Positions 1,849 to 17,566 of a stretch of DNA of 21,790 nt are shown here, one piece after another. Source of the stretch: a virus. Every line of letters begins with the position of its first letter. Position 1 is the stretch's first letter. The notes under the pieces were generated by a model. It had not been told where the DNA came from, searched no databases, and saw only the letters and a program-made list of their open reading frames with translations. The translations under genes and the position numbers were made by a program. The DNA is taken from positions 1 through 21,790 of IMG/VR virus record IMGVR_UViG_3300027898_000151. The stretch is one strand, 5' to 3'.

Positions 1849-1990
1849 ACCATGTTCCATGTCGGGGCGTCGGTCATTATGGCCCTCTTTTTGGGGTCTC
1901 ACCATAATAGTATCTCAATCATCATACTATCTATCCTATATCACTCTTTATACTATACTCTTTTCAATGTTGAATTTTTCTTTAAAGATA

Positions 1991-2004
1991 CCCTATAAAT
2001 AGGG
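1991..2004. repeat. Perfect palindrome at the composition switch
   Basis: CCCTAT, AA, ATAGGG. It sits exactly where the + strand changes from C-rich/G-poor to G-rich/C-poor. It could be an operator or an origin unwinding/binding site. Confidence 0.6.
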
Positions 2005-2235
2005 CACATAGATAAGAGGGGTGGTTGATAGTATGAGAAAATGATAAGTATAAAAAGAGAGCATGAAAAAGGGGGGAAATATTGAGAGGGGGAAAGTGGA
2101 ACATAGGAACATCGCATACTTGGCACCACAAATGGAACATAGTGATCGGCTTGCAAGAGTGATAGGTATCATTGAGTGATAAGTATAACATATTGTGGGG
2201 TAACAAGAATAACCATGATATGTTGTATTTTTCAC

Positions 2236-3003: not shown

Positions 3004-4053
3004 ATGAAACTCCAATGTAGGATATCAGGACTAACTTTCTATTCTGCATATCACTTCAAGAATGAGCCAACAGTGCGCAATGCACTACATCCTATTTTTT
3101 CTGTATCACTCCGAGATTTACTTGCCAAAGCTCAAAAGTATGGCAGGGGAGACTATACTGAGGAAGAAGAAAAACTATTATTTCTAGCACTTCTCAATAA
3201 GACAGATGCTGTTGATTGGGAAGTGCCTGCTAATCCATCGCCTGATACTGTTGATCGCTATCTTGACAGTATATTCATCCTACTTTCATGGTATGAGAAA
3301 GTGACTCCGGGCGCCTTAAAACTACCTAGAATGAGAGTATCAGAACATAACAAAAATCTAGCTAACATTGGTATGTTCATTCAATCCTGGTATGATGTCA
3401 GGAAAGAATGGATGTCTCCATCTATCAAGAAATTCATGGCTGATCTACTAGAACACCGTGAACACTTGATGCAACGTCTTATCAATTCTAGACGTGATAC
3501 TTTTGAGTATGCTGGCAAACTAGCATCATGGGCAATGGATGCTGCTGATGTTCATCCTGATAGGAGAGCAGAATGGACAGCATTGTTTAAGATGAAGCCA
3601 GATAAAGAAGCACTTACTTGTGATCTTGATGAATTGCTTGATATGAGAGATCACATGGAACGTCATCTTTACGCAGTAGAAGGACTTGGACATAAATCAG
3701 GATTATCAGGCGATACTGCTAAGAAAGTAATGGATCATATTCATCGTCTGGTGGAAATACGAGAAGGTGGTATGATTGCATTACTTGGTGGTTTTGGAAT
3801 TACTGCAACTGATGACTTCCAACACAAAGTCAATACTGGTGGGGTCACAACAACTGATATCCAACAACTCAAGAGTAAGATACAAGAGAGCGGTGCGCCA
3901 AACACAGAACCAAAGAAAGAAGATTATCCTAACCTAATCTCTTTCATCAAAGCAAAGTCTGCATGGGTGTTAAGTTCTCACCTGAGAGAAAACTTAGCTT
4001 TTGCAGAACAACATTCATCACAAATCATTGATACTAATGAAACCCCGGAGTAA
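3004..4053 (+). CDS. Hypothetical protein, 349 aa, next to the replication cluster
   Basis: I cannot name this family. The protein opens with a Cys-containing beta-like segment and an HPIFS motif near residues 28-32. The rest is mainly alpha-helical, with many Arg, Glu and Trp residues (about 100-260) and a Gly-rich turn near 257-266. There is no signal peptide or membrane segment. AAGGA at 2990-2994 supports ATG 3004. The next gene begins 6 bases after the stop, so it belongs to the same transcription unit as the SF1 helicase downstream. That context makes a role in DNA replication or its control plausible but unproven. Confidence 0.8.
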   Translation: MKLQCRISGLTFYSAYHFKNEPTVRNALHPIFSVSLRDLLAKAQKYGRGDYTEEEEKLLFLALLNKTDAVDWEVPANPSPDTVDRYLDSIFILLSWYEKVTPGALKLPRMRVSEHNKNLANIGMFIQSWYDVRKEWMSPSIKKFMADLLEHREHLMQRLINSRRDTFEYAGKLASWAMDAADVHPDRRAEWTALFKMKPDKEALTCDLDELLDMRDHMERHLYAVEGLGHKSGLSGDTAKKVMDHIHRLVEIREGGMIALLGGFGITATDDFQHKVNTGGVTTTDIQQLKSKIQESGAPNTEPKKEDYPNLISFIKAKSAWVLSSHLRENLAFAEQHSSQIIDTNETPE

Positions 4054-4473: not shown

Positions 4474-4667
4474 AAACGATAGTAGGTTACACACTGATAT
4501 CACAATTTCCGAACTCACAAGTAACTGATAGTGTTACAATCATGGAAATTACACCAGAATATGCACTAGACTATCAACAATACTCTGAATACACTCTAGG
4601 ATTACCAACACACATGCGCAAATTTACTATCATCGAAAAGCTGCCAGAAGAAAGTTACGAGCAATGA
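4470..4667 (+). CDS. Hypothetical protein, 65 aa
   Basis: A small protein of unknown function. AAGGAG at 4454-4459 supports the start, and both ends overlap the neighbouring genes by 4 bases (ATGA), which argues strongly that it is real and co-translated with the helicase. The sequence is polar with a beta-like N-terminus. Confidence 0.75.
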   Translation: MKTIVGYTLISQFPNSQVTDSVTIMEITPEYALDYQQYSEYTLGLPTHMRKFTIIEKLPEESYEQ

Positions 4668-6868
4668 GCACTATATCACCTGATCGCTTTAAGATGTTAC
4701 TAGAGCGAGCAAGAGCACATGCTGCTAGTATCAATCAGACTTCTGTGACCGCCAACATTTCCAATACTATCGACCTTATCAATAAGGAAAAACCTACAGA
4801 TGTTGATCTATCCAAAATGGGTATCAATCCATCAGATACAACGAAATCAAAAGAAGAAATTGATGAACAAATCACGGAAGTTATATCCGACTTACATGAA
4901 CCAATATCTATTTCCGATGAACCAACAAAAGAAAAGACTCACACAACAGGAGTTGCTGCTGACGTTGAGCTTAATGATAGGCAAAAACTATTCATTGAGA
5001 CGGCGCTAAAAGGAGAAGATGTTTGTTTGATTGGTGCTGCTGGCACTGGTAAAACTACTGTCACCGGTAAGTTTATCAAAGAGTTGCTAAACACTGGCAG
5101 ACTTAAGAAAGTTGGTATGGACACCAAATGGATTAAGTCTAATACTCCAGGTGTGCTTATTACTAGCTTTACTCGTAAGGCTGTTAACAATATCAGACGT
5201 GCAGTGCCACTAGAGTTGAAACCTCATGTGCTGACAATGCACAAGATACTAGAGTTTGCACCTGTCTTCTATGAGATCATGGATGAAAACAATCCAACTC
5301 AAGTTAAAAAGACAATGCGTTTTGAACCACAAAGAAGTGCTGTCAATCCACTTCCATATAACATCAGTCTTGTTGTTTACGAAGAAAGTTCTATGATTGG
5401 GACTGATTTGTATAACATGATGATGGATGCAATGCCACATAATCCACAAGAGATTTTCATTGGCGATATCAGACAGTTGCCACCAATTTTTGGACCAGCA
5501 ATTCTTGGTTTCAAGATGTCGCTGCTACCAACTGTTGAGCTAACCGATGTATATCGTCAGGCATTGCTATCTCCTATCATCAGACTTGCTCATGCTGTTC
5601 TCAGTGGAGATAGTAAGAAGTTTCTTCCTACTGGCAAGAAAGTGAGAATGAAGCATCCACATCTTGATAAGGTAGTGGATCGCATTATTATTCCATCACT
5701 GGAAGAGTTTAGTGAAGAGTCTGAACATGGTATCCTTAAAATACAACCATGGCAGAAAAAGCTAGCAGCAGAAGACGCTCTTAGCACTTGTATAACTCAA
5801 TTCATTGCATGGGAAAAATCTGGATACTACAATCCAGCGGAAGATATCATTCTCTGTCCGTTCAATAAAGCGTTTGGGACAATTGAGATTAATAAAGGTA
5901 TTCAGAATTATCTAGGTCGCAAACGCAAAGCAATAGTCCATGAAGTAATTGCTGGATATAATAAACATTATCTAGCGGTTGGCGATCGTGTTCTTTATGA
6001 CAAAGAAGATGCTACTATCATCGAGATCAAACGTAATGCTAATTATCTTGGTAAGTCATTTCTTCCGGCGTCCGAACATCTTGATAGGTGGGGAATTTAT
6101 CAAGAAAACATCTCACAAGAGCAACTCGCTAAGCTCACTACAGAAGAGACTGAGTATGATCACAAAGTATTAGATGACTTTTTTGAACTCAATTACAGTG
6201 ATGATACTGAAGAAGAGAATAGAGTTAATGCTGCCAGTCATGAAGTTACTATCCAGTTTGCATATAGCGAGGAAGTAATCAGATTGTCGGGCGCCGCTGA
6301 AGTCAATAACTTGATGGGCGGTAATGCTATCACAGTGCATAAAATGCAAGGCTCTGAAAGTCAGACAATCTTCTTTGTGTTGCACAACAGTCACGCTAAC
6401 ATGATCAACAATGAGCTTCTTTACACTGGTATCTCTCGTGCTAGACACAAGTTGCATATCATATGCGAGAGTGACACTTTTTTCAAAGGTGTAAAGACTC
6501 AAAAAGTGCGTGGTATAACTCTGCAAGATAAAATTGAATTCTTCAAAGGTAAAGTTGAATTCAAAGCAATGCAGAAAGAGTTGGAAAAACTTACACAACA
6601 GAGAGAACGAAAGAAACAAACCAATGCACAACAAGTTACTGCTGCTCCTATCACTGCTAGGATTAGTTATAATTTCACTCCTGCTACTCGTAGTAGTCTC
6701 ACAACATTGGATGAAATATACGATTACCAATATACAGATGATGGGTCACAAGAACGATATGAGAGTGAAGGCAACACACCAATCAAGCAGTTTGCTAGTG
6801 TCAAACCAAAACAACTCTCAGTAGAAGATCGTATTGCTATATTGAGAGCTAAGTTAGGTAAGCGCTAG
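4664..6868 (+). CDS. SF1 DNA helicase (RecD2/Dda-like), 734 aa
   Basis: An ATP-driven DNA helicase of superfamily 1. The motifs appear in order: a Q-like NDRQ segment just before Walker A GAAGTGKTT (124-132); Walker B/motif II with E240-E241 in VYEES; motif III GDIRQLPP (267-274); motif V ITVHKMQGS (556-564); motif VI YTGISRAR (587-594). HKMQGSE and GISRARH are typical of the RecD/Dda (SF1B, 5'-3') group. Residues 1-100 are an acidic, low-complexity extension, and about 640-715 is a linker. The last 17 residues (718-734) contain LSVEDRIAILRAK, closely matching the C-terminus of the Sak4-like ATPase encoded at 11282-12379. It ends the 2323-6868 cluster. The exact role (replication fork or recombination) is inferred. 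Confidence 0.92.
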   Translation: MSTISPDRFKMLLERARAHAASINQTSVTANISNTIDLINKEKPTDVDLSKMGINPSDTTKSKEEIDEQITEVISDLHEPISISDEPTKEKTHTTGVAADVELNDRQKLFIETALKGEDVCLIGAAGTGKTTVTGKFIKELLNTGRLKKVGMDTKWIKSNTPGVLITSFTRKAVNNIRRAVPLELKPHVLTMHKILEFAPVFYEIMDENNPTQVKKTMRFEPQRSAVNPLPYNISLVVYEESSMIGTDLYNMMMDAMPHNPQEIFIGDIRQLPPIFGPAILGFKMSLLPTVELTDVYRQALLSPIIRLAHAVLSGDSKKFLPTGKKVRMKHPHLDKVVDRIIIPSLEEFSEESEHGILKIQPWQKKLAAEDALSTCITQFIAWEKSGYYNPAEDIILCPFNKAFGTIEINKGIQNYLGRKRKAIVHEVIAGYNKHYLAVGDRVLYDKEDATIIEIKRNANYLGKSFLPASEHLDRWGIYQENISQEQLAKLTTEETEYDHKVLDDFFELNYSDDTEEENRVNAASHEVTIQFAYSEEVIRLSGAAEVNNLMGGNAITVHKMQGSESQTIFFVLHNSHANMINNELLYTGISRARHKLHIICESDTFFKGVKTQKVRGITLQDKIEFFKGKVEFKAMQKELEKLTQQRERKKQTNAQQVTAAPITARISYNFTPATRSSLTTLDEIYDYQYTDDGSQERYESEGNTPIKQFASVKPKQLSVEDRIAILRAKLGKR

Positions 6869-6981: not shown

Positions 6982-7683
6982 ATGTCTGAACATCACGAAC
7001 ACACTCACGAACACGCTAACCACGCACATCATGCTGCGGAAACTCCGGTTGTTACTGCCCCTCTCTATAATATCCGAGAGCTGAAGTTTTCTTTTAAGAA
7101 GCAGGTTCTCAAGGATGCTGATGGTAATCCTATCAAGGATGAGCTTGGTGTTGAAAAGAAGCGTCCTCCCGTTGTTCTCAATGTGAAGGTTCCTACGTTT
7201 GAAGGATTGCTGACAGAGATTTCTGATCCTAATGTTGCTAACTTTGTTCTTGATCTTGTTGAAGAGGCAATCAAGGATCAGGTTCGCCAGCAGCTTTCTG
7301 ATGAAGAAAACCCTGTTAATCGTCAGGAAGAACTTGACGAAAAGAAGCTCACTCTTTCGTATATTGCTAACATTCCTCGCAGCGAACGCACTGGTAGCGC
7401 TCTTAGCAAGGAAGTGTTTGAAGACTTTGGTAAGGATTATATCGAAGTCATGCAGCAGTTTCGTGCTGTTGAAAAGGTTACTCATGCTGCTAAATTGTTC
7501 ATGGGTAAGCTCAACAGTGTCAAGACTGACAAGCGTATTCTCAAGCTTCTGCGTGAACAGCTTGCTACTTGGGCTGAAAATACTAAGCAGCTTGAAGATT
7601 TGCAGGAAGTGTATGTCTTCCTTGATAATCGTATCTCTACTTTCCTCAAGAAGGATGATGTTGACCAGCTTGCCCTGCTGTAA
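6982..7683 (+). CDS. His-rich N-terminus, highly expressed-looking protein of unknown function, 233 aa
   Basis: Eight of residues 4-17 are His, which could bind metal. The body is charged and mostly helical, with a beta-like segment near 29-70 containing a Lys-Asp-Ala-Asp-Gly-Asn turn. There is no membrane segment or signal peptide, and I do not recognise the family. Codon use differs sharply from its neighbours: 21 of 22 Lys codons are AAG, whereas the DNA polymerase gene uses mainly AAA. This is typical of a very strongly expressed gene. It stands alone between its own promoter (6893-6921) and a strong terminator (7706-7742). An abundant DNA-binding, scaffolding or host-directed protein would fit. 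The SD before ATG 6982 is weak. Confidence 0.85.
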   Translation: MSEHHEHTHEHANHAHHAAETPVVTAPLYNIRELKFSFKKQVLKDADGNPIKDELGVEKKRPPVVLNVKVPTFEGLLTEISDPNVANFVLDLVEEAIKDQVRQQLSDEENPVNRQEELDEKKLTLSYIANIPRSERTGSALSKEVFEDFGKDYIEVMQQFRAVEKVTHAAKLFMGKLNSVKTDKRILKLLREQLATWAENTKQLEDLQEVYVFLDNRISTFLKKDDVDQLALL

Positions 7684-13980: not shown

Positions 13981-16293
13981 ATGTCTCGTGCAGTAATCTT
14001 TCACTATACAGATGAAGATGCTCCTTACTTGGGCTTTCTTAAAGCTATAGTTCGCGGTCGCACAACAGCTACATATCTTGACAATACCAAACCAGTGCTT
14101 TTCACTGAGATGGCGATGAAAAGTAAAAAGCATGGCAATGCTGTAATTGTATCAACTAGCAAGCAACTTCTCAGTATCGTGTTTCCATTTGCTGACAATC
14201 CTACTATTGATGAGTATGCTGGAAATTATATCAATTACAAAGGCGTAGATGTTTTATTTATCAATCCGCTCAAACAACTTGTAACCGTCAACTACGGTAA
14301 GTTTGTATTCGAGCGTTTCCTGAGTAAAATCTTGGCGCCCGAAAATTTCATACCTGAGCCAGAGTTTCAGTGGGAATATTTTCAACCATCTCAACTTGAT
14401 GACTATGTTGAATTTTTTCAGCAATGCACTATCATTGGTATTGATAGTGAAACTGTTCGCAATGATCCTTTGCGTAGCATTTCTTGCATTGGCTTTTGTG
14501 GTGCAATTCTCCATGGTAACAAGATCACATTACGCACTGTAGTAGTGCCAATGGACGATATGTTTAATGTTGAGTTTTGCCGTTTACTATGCGATATGCC
14601 GGCGCCCAAAGTATTTCAGAATGGTAAATATGATATTGCATACTTCTTCCGATATAATATCATTGTCAGAAATTATGCGTTTGACACTATTAACTTATTT
14701 CATTCTTGGTTTTGTGAGCTGCCAAAAGATCTAGGCTTTGTATCAACGTTCATGCTGCGTAACTATGTATACCATAAAAATACCAAAGGTCTTTCCAAGC
14801 ATGAATTCTATGGTTACAATGCAAAAGATTGCTATGTAACTGTTATGTCTGCAATTGCTTTGTTGATGGAAATTCCAAAGTATGCAGAGACTAACTTTCT
14901 CATTGAGTTTCCTATTGTGTTTCCTTGCATACTGTCAGAGACAACAGGTATCAAATGGGATCAGCAAGCTGCTAATGATTTGAAGCAGCAAGTTAAAGTT
15001 ATCATGGAAAAAGAATTACTATCTCTCCGTAAGATGGTAGCTTGTCCGCAATACAATCCTAACAGCCCACAACAAACACAGCGATTGTTTCAAATACTAG
15101 GGAGTAGAGATGTTAAGTCAACTGATAAAGTTGGCAAAGATAAAGTAGCTTTTCGACATCCTCTCAACAGAGTATTGATGGATAAAATTATCAACTATCG
15201 TGAGAATATGAAAGTTAATAGCAGCTATTTCAAAGACACTGTATCTTGGAATGGTCGCTGTTTCTATGCACTCAATCCACATGGCACAGATACTGCCAGA
15301 CTTTCCAGTAAAGAGTCACAGTTTTGGTGCGGTCTTTCTATTCATACTATCAAGCGTGATGAAGATGGCGAAGAAGCTATCAATGTTAAAGATGCGTTCG
15401 TTGCTGATGAAGATTTTTGGTTTGGTGAAGCAGACTATAGCCAAGCAGAAAGTCGTGGCACTGCATACTTGTCAGGCGATCTTGCACTTATTGATGCAGT
15501 TGATAATCCTGCTACTGATTTTCATGGTGTCAATGCTAGTCGCTTCTTTGGTATTCCATACAATGAAATCATTGAAAGCAAGTGCATAACTATTGACGAA
15601 GATGGTAATGAAATTCCTACTGAACATTGCTATTGGGTGCACAAAATTCTTCGTAAACCTATTCGTCAGCTTAGTAAAAATACTAACCATGGCGCTAATT
15701 ATAACATGGGACCGGCCGTAATGGTTGATACTATGGGCATTAAAAATGTGCTCATGGCTAAGAAAATTCTTGGACTGCCGGAAAAATTCTCACCTATCAA
15801 TGTTACAGAGTATCTTCTTGCTGCATTTAATAGAACATATCATATTATGAAAGGTCCATACTATGACAAGATTAAAGCAGATATTCGTGACACAGGATTT
15901 CTTGTTAGCCCAACTGGTTGGACCCGCAAATGTTTTGGTAACCCAGACAAGAGTAAACTAGACCTCAACTCATATGTAGCACACCCATCACAAAACTTGA
16001 ATGCACAGATACTTAACAAAGCTGTGTTGAATGTTTTTTACAATGTGTGGCTACACAACAAACGTGATTTTAAATTCTGCGCTCAGGTGCATGATAGTCT
16101 TCTCTTTCAATATCGTAAGTCTCGTCCTGACTTACCTTGGCAAGTTGCAGATTGTATGAAAATTCCAGTTGATGTAAAAGATACATTTGGTATTACTCGC
16201 ACACTTATTGTTCCTACTGATATCAAAGGGGAAGGTAAAAGATGGTCTAGTTGTAAACCTCTCAAGAGACCTAAGAACCTGAAAGCATACTGA
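13981..16293 (+). CDS. Family A DNA polymerase with 3'-5' exonuclease, 770 aa
   Basis: The phage replicative polymerase. Proofreading domain: Exo I D155-S-E157, Exo II NGKYD (214-218), Exo III NAKD ending D283. Polymerase domain: motif A D485-YSQAESR (485-492), motif B R562...K566...N569-HGANYN (562-575), motif C QVHDS (702-706) with metal ligand D705. Motif C has Ser where bacterial Pol I has Glu, as in some phage enzymes. Residues 1-140 form an extra N-terminal domain with no motif I know. The length is near that of T7-type polymerases plus this domain. AAGGAG at 13966-13971 gives 9-base spacing. It is followed one base later by the DUF3987-like gene. No thioredoxin-type partner is evident nearby. 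Confidence 0.95.
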   Translation: MSRAVIFHYTDEDAPYLGFLKAIVRGRTTATYLDNTKPVLFTEMAMKSKKHGNAVIVSTSKQLLSIVFPFADNPTIDEYAGNYINYKGVDVLFINPLKQLVTVNYGKFVFERFLSKILAPENFIPEPEFQWEYFQPSQLDDYVEFFQQCTIIGIDSETVRNDPLRSISCIGFCGAILHGNKITLRTVVVPMDDMFNVEFCRLLCDMPAPKVFQNGKYDIAYFFRYNIIVRNYAFDTINLFHSWFCELPKDLGFVSTFMLRNYVYHKNTKGLSKHEFYGYNAKDCYVTVMSAIALLMEIPKYAETNFLIEFPIVFPCILSETTGIKWDQQAANDLKQQVKVIMEKELLSLRKMVACPQYNPNSPQQTQRLFQILGSRDVKSTDKVGKDKVAFRHPLNRVLMDKIINYRENMKVNSSYFKDTVSWNGRCFYALNPHGTDTARLSSKESQFWCGLSIHTIKRDEDGEEAINVKDAFVADEDFWFGEADYSQAESRGTAYLSGDLALIDAVDNPATDFHGVNASRFFGIPYNEIIESKCITIDEDGNEIPTEHCYWVHKILRKPIRQLSKNTNHGANYNMGPAVMVDTMGIKNVLMAKKILGLPEKFSPINVTEYLLAAFNRTYHIMKGPYYDKIKADIRDTGFLVSPTGWTRKCFGNPDKSKLDLNSYVAHPSQNLNAQILNKAVLNVFYNVWLHNKRDFKFCAQVHDSLLFQYRKSRPDLPWQVADCMKIPVDVKDTFGITRTLIVPTDIKGEGKRWSSCKPLKRPKNLKAY

Positions 16294-16294
16294 T

Positions 16295-17566
16295 ATGGCT
16301 GATGCTGATATCTTTGCCAACTATCTAAAATACACAGCAGATACTGAACCTCCTACAGTATATCATCGTTGGTGTTATCTTACATCTCTTGGTGCAGTTA
16401 TTGGCAGAAATGCTTATCTTGACATGGGATTGTTAGGCAGAGTATTTCCTACTCTATATGTCATGTTGCTTGGAGAGCCAGCAACTAGAAAATCTACTGC
16501 TATCAAAATGGCAAAACGTATTGTAGGTAGCTCAGGATATACTACGTTTGCTGCTGATAAAACAAGACAAGAAAAGTTTCTTCTTGATCTTGAAGGTGGA
16601 ATAGACGAAGACGTAATTGAAAAAGATAGCAAAGGAAGATATGATGCAGTCACAGCAGAAGCACTCTGGGGTTCCAGTGATGACAGAGAACCTAAACACA
16701 TGTTCATTGTTGCTGATGAATTTAACGACTTCGCAGGTTCAGGCAATCTTGAATTCTATACGATGCTCGGGTCTCTCTGGGACTTTGATAACACCACAAC
16801 ACCTTTTACACAAAGATTCAAAAATTCCAAATCAGTATCTATATATCAGCCAACAATTTCAATCCTTTCTGGAAATACTCCAGAGTTATTTGCAAAGGCT
16901 TTTCCACCAGAAGCCATCGGGTCAGGTTTTCTTTCAAGACTCTTACTTATTCATGGCGAACGTTCAGGACGAAGAATTACTTTCCCGCCACCCCCAGACG
17001 AAATTATAGGTAACGGAATTATCGAACATATGAAAGTTTTGCGGCTCCGACAAGTTGGCGAGTTAAAGAAGACCTCGCAAGCATACGCTATGTTAGATGC
17101 AATATATCAAGCTGATAGTCCATTGTATGACATTCGTTTTAAAGCATACACACAACGTCGCTTTACTCAACTGCTGCGGTTGTGTGTAATTATTGCAGCA
17201 GCTAAGTTGCAAACAGAAGTTACAGATCATGATGTATTGTATGCAAACACTATTCTTTCTCATGCTGAAATCAATATGCCGAAAGCTATTGGTGAGTTTG
17301 GTAAGGGTAAGAATAGTGACGTAGCTAACAAAATTATGAGCATACTAGAACAAGCTACCAAACCTGTCAGTAACAGAGAACTCTGGCAACAGGTTCACAA
17401 AGACTTAGCAAGTCAGAAAGATTTGATTGATATCATGTCTGGCTTGTTGATGGCTGATAAAATTCAAACTGTAGAGAAAGGATTTCTCTTGAAGAAGTTA
17501 GTTAGAAAAGACCCGCCACATGTAGATTGGATGTTGTTGACACAAGAAGAAAGAGACATGATATGA
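16295..17566 (+). CDS. DUF3987-type P-loop ATPase, probable replication helicase-like protein, 423 aa
   Basis: The N-terminal segment (DIFANYLKYTADTEPP, then a Trp-containing helix and VIGRNAYLDMG) is typical of DUF3987-like proteins found with phage and mobile-element replication genes. The P-loop is GEPATRKST (60-68), with Arg instead of the usual Gly before the Lys. Walker B ends D141-E142 (FIVADEF). An SGNTPE segment near 194-199 is a sensor-like motif. Residues 335-410 look like a winged-helix domain (VSNRELWQQVHKDL), likely for DNA contact. The gene starts one base after the polymerase stop with a weak SD, so it is probably coupled to it. Helicase activity is inferred from context, and no primase motif is seen. 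Confidence 0.8.
   Translation: MADADIFANYLKYTADTEPPTVYHRWCYLTSLGAVIGRNAYLDMGLLGRVFPTLYVMLLGEPATRKSTAIKMAKRIVGSSGYTTFAADKTRQEKFLLDLEGGIDEDVIEKDSKGRYDAVTAEALWGSSDDREPKHMFIVADEFNDFAGSGNLEFYTMLGSLWDFDNTTTPFTQRFKNSKSVSIYQPTISILSGNTPELFAKAFPPEAIGSGFLSRLLLIHGERSGRRITFPPPPDEIIGNGIIEHMKVLRLRQVGELKKTSQAYAMLDAIYQADSPLYDIRFKAYTQRRFTQLLRLCVIIAAAKLQTEVTDHDVLYANTILSHAEINMPKAIGEFGKGKNSDVANKIMSILEQATKPVSNRELWQQVHKDLASQKDLIDIMSGLLMADKIQTVEKGFLLKKLVRKDPPHVDWMLLTQEERDMI

Follow-up and report, generated by a model that had tools for sequence, protein, structure and literature searches.

A non-coding inverted repeat with an iteron array in each arm is most likely a bidirectional, iteron-type replication origin of a phage family. 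Judged from sequence, we give this reading a probability of about 0.68. The element lies in the window, i.e. the whole 21.8-kb stretch of DNA analysed, which is a fragment of an IMG/VR virus record and an incomplete genome. Most likely, it represents an origin of a known kind, found here in a setting and an arrangement that are new.

An earlier note on this DNA had drawn attention to a sharp composition switch at a 14-base palindrome within a gene-free tract. The base counts proved exact. Positions 1898–1990 contain 4 G and 20 C, the remaining bases being 40 T and 29 A, and positions 2005–2100 contain 34 G and 3 C, together with 42 A and 17 T (direct count). The intergenic region spans 1672–2322, and the genes on either side are both on the + strand; the note had stated that they point the same way. 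A scan of the entire 21.8-kb record with 120-bp flanks identified this as its largest C-to-G switch (z 4.9, about 5 SD), with the C/G contrast maximal at ~1991–1998. The palindrome is a dyad but not a perfect one: CCCTATAAATAGGG comprises 6-bp arms around a central AA, and its reverse complement is CCCTATTTATAGGG. It is not a conserved part of the element. The features of the region are as follows.

1784–2157, no strand: whole element, a long imperfect inverted repeat, non-coding, proposed origin
1816–1824, + strand: left outer iteron ATGTTCCAT, exact
1831–1848, + strand: CTCAATGTG twice, a direct repeat found in the left array only
1852–1860, + strand: left inner iteron ATGTTCCAT, exact, 36 bp from the outer one
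1898–1990, no strand: pyrimidine-rich tract, C over G (base count)
1904–1963, no strand: 60-bp duplex of lowest stability in the whole record, immediately left of the axis, putative unwinding element
1991–2004, no strand: central dyad CCCTAT-AA-ATAGGG (6-bp arms, AA centre), the switch point
2005–2100, no strand: purine-rich tract, G over C (base count)
2096–2104, - strand: right inner iteron with one mismatch; the + strand reads GTGGAACAT
2132–2140, - strand: right outer iteron, exact, 36 bp from the inner one; the + strand reads ATGGAACAT
2236–2264, + strand: sigma-70-like promoter TTGACA-17-GAAAAT, directed toward the replication genes

The composition switch lies at the centre of a longer inverted repeat with arms at 1816–1859 and 2097–2140. 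Its score of 41 was the best in the surrounding 650 bp; among 100 shuffles that preserved the dinucleotides, the highest score was 29.5. The outer parts of this repeat are inverted iterons. Both arms show the same 36-bp spacing within the iteron pair, and the symmetry axis is at 1978. Three exact copies of ATGTTCCAT were found in the whole record (0.48 expected), all of them within the element. The unstable duplex at 1904–1963 is flanked by both iteron pairs. It counts against an origin that intergenic DNA often is AT-rich and compositionally extreme anyway. Most intergenic gaps at the left end of the window also carry strong hairpins (490–545, 1065–1130, 1674–1770 and 2906–2951), the last being a perfect 15-bp stem just 5' of the first conserved gene.

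The phage encodes a family A polymerase, a Dda-like helicase, a PD-(D/E)XK nuclease, a Sak4-like ATPase and a DUF3987 protein. Four genes matter for the following analysis.

3004–4053, + strand: first conserved gene of the replication operon, the anchor for locating the element
4664–6868, + strand: Dda-like SF1 helicase
13981–16293, + strand: family A DNA polymerase
16295–17566, + strand: DUF3987 protein with an MCM-like AAA+ fold and a C-terminal winged helix, candidate helicase-initiator

A DNA-level search for phages with the region gave no match, and a search of viral contigs with a single polymerase protein gave no relative. Using an alignment of four polymerases, we obtained 425 related stretches from the viral contigs, of which 80 were kept. 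Polymerase identity to the relatives was mostly 40–50%; the nearest named phages (Aeromonas phage P5, Polaromonas phage Tiera and EBPR podovirus 3) reached 28–31%. We read 22 long, mostly complete genomes (41–48 kb) and one fragment (G008); counts over 24 genomes include the window. The product of 3004–4053 served as the anchor for finding the element. Its family stands at the start of the replication operon in 24 of 24 genomes; the protein had no Pfam or PHROG match, and a fold search gave no match with E below 0.001. A second set of relatives was collected with the helicase. Twenty elements, from 19 genomes and Tiera, were located by the inverted repeat without the use of skew. The elements of G009 and P5 were located by the switch.

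Dozens of relatives share a layout that precedes the first conserved replication gene: two iteron arrays in inverted orientation ~290–500 bp apart, an AT-rich core, and a polarity with C on the left and G on the right. In 17 of 24 genomes, with G017 counted via a tandem array, the top inverted repeat of the genome was located upstream of the anchor gene and within ~2.6 kb of it. The element of the window is the second-ranked inverted repeat of its record, just behind a hairpin at ~2785–2986. In the second set, a strong inverted repeat (span 285–499 bp) was found upstream of the helicase in 12 further relatives (L183, L185, L191, L193, L194, L195, L198, L200, L201, L202, L207 and L219); some other loci of this set had no strong inverted repeat there. 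In the window and nine other genomes, the element contained the 60-bp duplex with the lowest stability in the record or genome.

Iteron orientation was maintained in nearly all relatives: the left arm carried mostly forward copies and the right arm mostly reverse complements, and opposite-sense counts were near zero. G002, for example, had 5 + 5 iterons in the expected sense and G007 had 4 + 5, with 0 opposite. The iteron word itself varies by phage: TACCATC in G002, GTGCTA in G007, GTATAC in G003, AGACCG in G015 and G021, TGCCAT in G016 and G022, and TGCCTGAA in G026. A Gibbs motif search of the core returned a C-tract plus a weak TTTTAAAG-GGGGTA (information 11.0 versus 9.3–10.0 in shuffled sequences). 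As this motif was present in only some genomes, it was dropped as an invariant core motif.

No recognisable copy of the element was found in G010, G011, G017 and G019, and no clear element was seen in PaP2 and EBPR podovirus 3. P5 has the switch, and neither iterons nor a significant inverted repeat were found in it. At the place of the element, G017 (L102) carries a ~220-bp array of TTGTACAAA-type tandem repeats, ~1.5–1.7 kb upstream of the 3004 homolog. Tiera (L181, ~43.94–44.1 kb) has a tandem direct duplication (TGTTCGTTATATCCCCGCG...) in the left half of its element.

The small window genes 1162–1671, 2323–2637 and 2634–2837 had no homologs among the relatives read. Most relatives have a gene of ~230 residues left of the element, weakly similar to window 6982–7683; it mostly points toward the element, and away from it in G001, G002, G003, G007 and G008. 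In G002 (L088, ~1.25–1.4 kb), a small gene next to the element contains GCTGATGCTTAT repeats that encode a low-complexity Ala/Asp/Tyr run, and G010 has a similar GCT-rich run.

The polarity of the switch was also recovered in the relatives. Among the 20 elements located by the inverted repeat alone (G009 and P5 were left out), the strongest C-to-G switch of the genome or record lay within 150 bp of the axis in nine. Over 22 genomes, the strongest C-to-G switch of the genome fell at the element in 11, and the strongest G-to-C switch in two. In the second set, the switch maximum of the locus was at the element in 5 of 12 relatives (L193, L194, L198, L201 and L202). Averaged over the 22 genomes, the skew at a distance of 80–160 bp from the axis was ~-0.3 on the left side and ~+0.2 on the right, and the AT content just left of the axis was 0.72. 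An antisymmetric skew follows from the inverted repeat; the shared sign is not explained by it.

The earlier note had further expected a genome-wide skew extremum at the site. This was seen in P5, where the minimum of the cumulative skew (31315) is 5 bp from the site and coincides with the strongest switch (31319), close to the changeover from leftward to rightward genes, i.e. the transcription divergence. In most relatives, however, the global minimum was elsewhere, and the detrended minimum fell within 2 kb of the element in only 2 of 20, which is chance level. Hence, the skew argument does not generalise, and genome-wide skew was rejected as general support for an origin.

Two kinds of contrary evidence had been named in the same note, namely a conserved protein or a structured RNA encoded by the tract. 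No conserved protein covers the tract in the relatives. The RNA reading, in which the composition flip reflects the two arms of a long + strand RNA that is structured or serves as an RNase III substrate, was prompted by strong folding energies in the window. The + strand of 1664–2237 folds at -185 kcal/mol (z -8.6) and the - strand at -143 kcal/mol (z -5.7), and smaller hairpins flank the putative long RNA. Against this, positions 1890–2110 on the + strand folded no better than shuffles, and Rfam gave no match. Moreover, iteron arrays make up the arms, and the element lies upstream of the operon promoter. The relatives were decisive. Selection for G-U pairing would give more G-U than A-C on one strand; the mismatches over 20 elements were 81 G-T and 106 A-C, so no G-U excess was seen and a DNA element is favoured. 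The better-folding strand also varied among the 20 elements, with neither consistently ahead. We rejected the RNA reading on these mismatch counts and consider it very improbable. Separately, a G-U-rich hairpin at 2159–2237 is stable only as + strand RNA (-28.3 versus -12.0 kcal/mol, z -6.2) and ends at the TTGACA promoter.

TTGACA adjoins the element in most relatives. The right array is near a promoter, so the element may have a regulatory role. One could go further and read it as the control region of an early promoter with no replication start. In most relatives, a TTGACA promoter is found inside the right array or immediately to its right, and some iterons overlap it in G016 and G022; the window has one at 2236–2264. 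In the window, G001, G002 and G003, however, it is ~60–150 bp or more outside the right array. Promoter control also fails to explain distant inverted arrays ~290–500 bp apart, the low-stability core and the polarised switch. We therefore regard this reading as unlikely, though it is the strongest of the alternatives.

A packaging (pac/cos) or partition site would also contain iterated sites, and many relatives have leftward genes of terminase-like size 1.5–4 kb left of the element; in Tiera, annotated terminase genes are on that side. However, packaging is one-directional and the element is two-fold symmetric. In many relatives another conserved gene stands between the element and the terminase-like-sized genes, and no ParA/ParB-like protein was found among the window genes searched. 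The chance that the element serves packaging or partition appears slight.

An origin, or a site where strands are opened, as proposed in the earlier note, is the best explanation of the conserved position, the inverted iterons, the unstable core and the polarity of the switch. The 14-base dyad, on which that proposal was centred, does not provide the support.

Several satellite origins are built as two iteron arrays around a low-stability core. In PICI/SaPI origins, an AT-rich region has a set of short iterons on each side, and the iteron sequence differs between elements (PMC7581432). The window element likewise has two iteron sets around an AT-rich core, with a word that varies by phage. The PICI/SaPI origin is directly 3' of rep, whereas the window element (~1816–2140) precedes the entire replication operon, with the DUF3987 gene ~14 kb away, an arrangement also found in the relatives. 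It further differs by its occurrence in podovirus-like phage genomes, its inverted arrays and the C-to-G switch centred between them. Ori lambda has initiator-bound iterons adjoining an AT-rich tract (PMC7466680), and iterons next to an AT-rich tract are present here as well. In ori lambda, a single array adjoins the AT tract within the O gene, whereas the window element has two inverted arrays around the core and is intergenic; no O-like protein was found. The origin of Vibrio cholerae PLE is non-coding, with repeats bound by the element-encoded initiator RepA (PMC7145576). The window element is also non-coding with repeats, but in contrast to PLE with its RepA_N initiator, no RepA_N family match was found among the window proteins searched.

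If the element is an origin, an initiator would bind both iteron arrays, and the AT-rich, low-stability core would then melt. Two helicase rings could be loaded in opposite orientations, and forks would leave both ways. The leading-strand templates would be the + strand on the left and the - strand on the right, both of which are pyrimidine-rich. Such templates would suit primers with a purine start, and the sign of the switch would thereby be accounted for.

Our candidate for the helicase-initiator, the DUF3987 protein, is predicted to be an AAA+ ring similar to MCM that ends in a winged helix. The closest solved folds to its predicted structure were MCM helicases (Foldseek E 1.3e-8; VIA Z 19.6, 279 residues, rmsd 3.5). 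Sequence searches against the PDB returned nothing convincing, so the MCM link rests on the predicted structure. The winged helix is predicted at residues ~341–399. Its probable recognition helix H3 (374–386) is the least conserved helix of the winged helix, with a mean identity of 33% versus 54% in the AAA core. This predicted helix and its low conservation fit a varying specificity. SaPI Rep helicases read the origin with their C-terminal domain and apparently bind as two hexamers (PMC7581432).

We also compared iteron similarity with the divergence of 11 conserved protein families. No protein stood out, since most relatives that share iterons are close kin anyway. The left neighbour gene, inspected for a link to the iterons, did not stand out either. 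We tentatively suggest that two oppositely oriented MCM-like DUF3987 rings are loaded at the inverted arrays, and that the iteron word changes from one phage to the next, with no change in the layout or in the C/T bias of the leading-strand templates. The odds are against this specific version. If it is true, DUF3987 loading would parallel MCM double hexamers in a minimal form in bacterial viruses.

The papers searched described no origin for these phages, whether for P5, Tiera or the PaP2 family. The group is large, as the 425 stretches come from the polymerase search alone. A recognisable origin would make the start and direction of replication readable from sequence in many metagenomic genomes, and the cultured phages P5 and Tiera offer a direct test of the prediction. 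The fast-changing iterons would be a natural system for studying initiator–origin specificity, in which an MCM-like helicase may be the reader.
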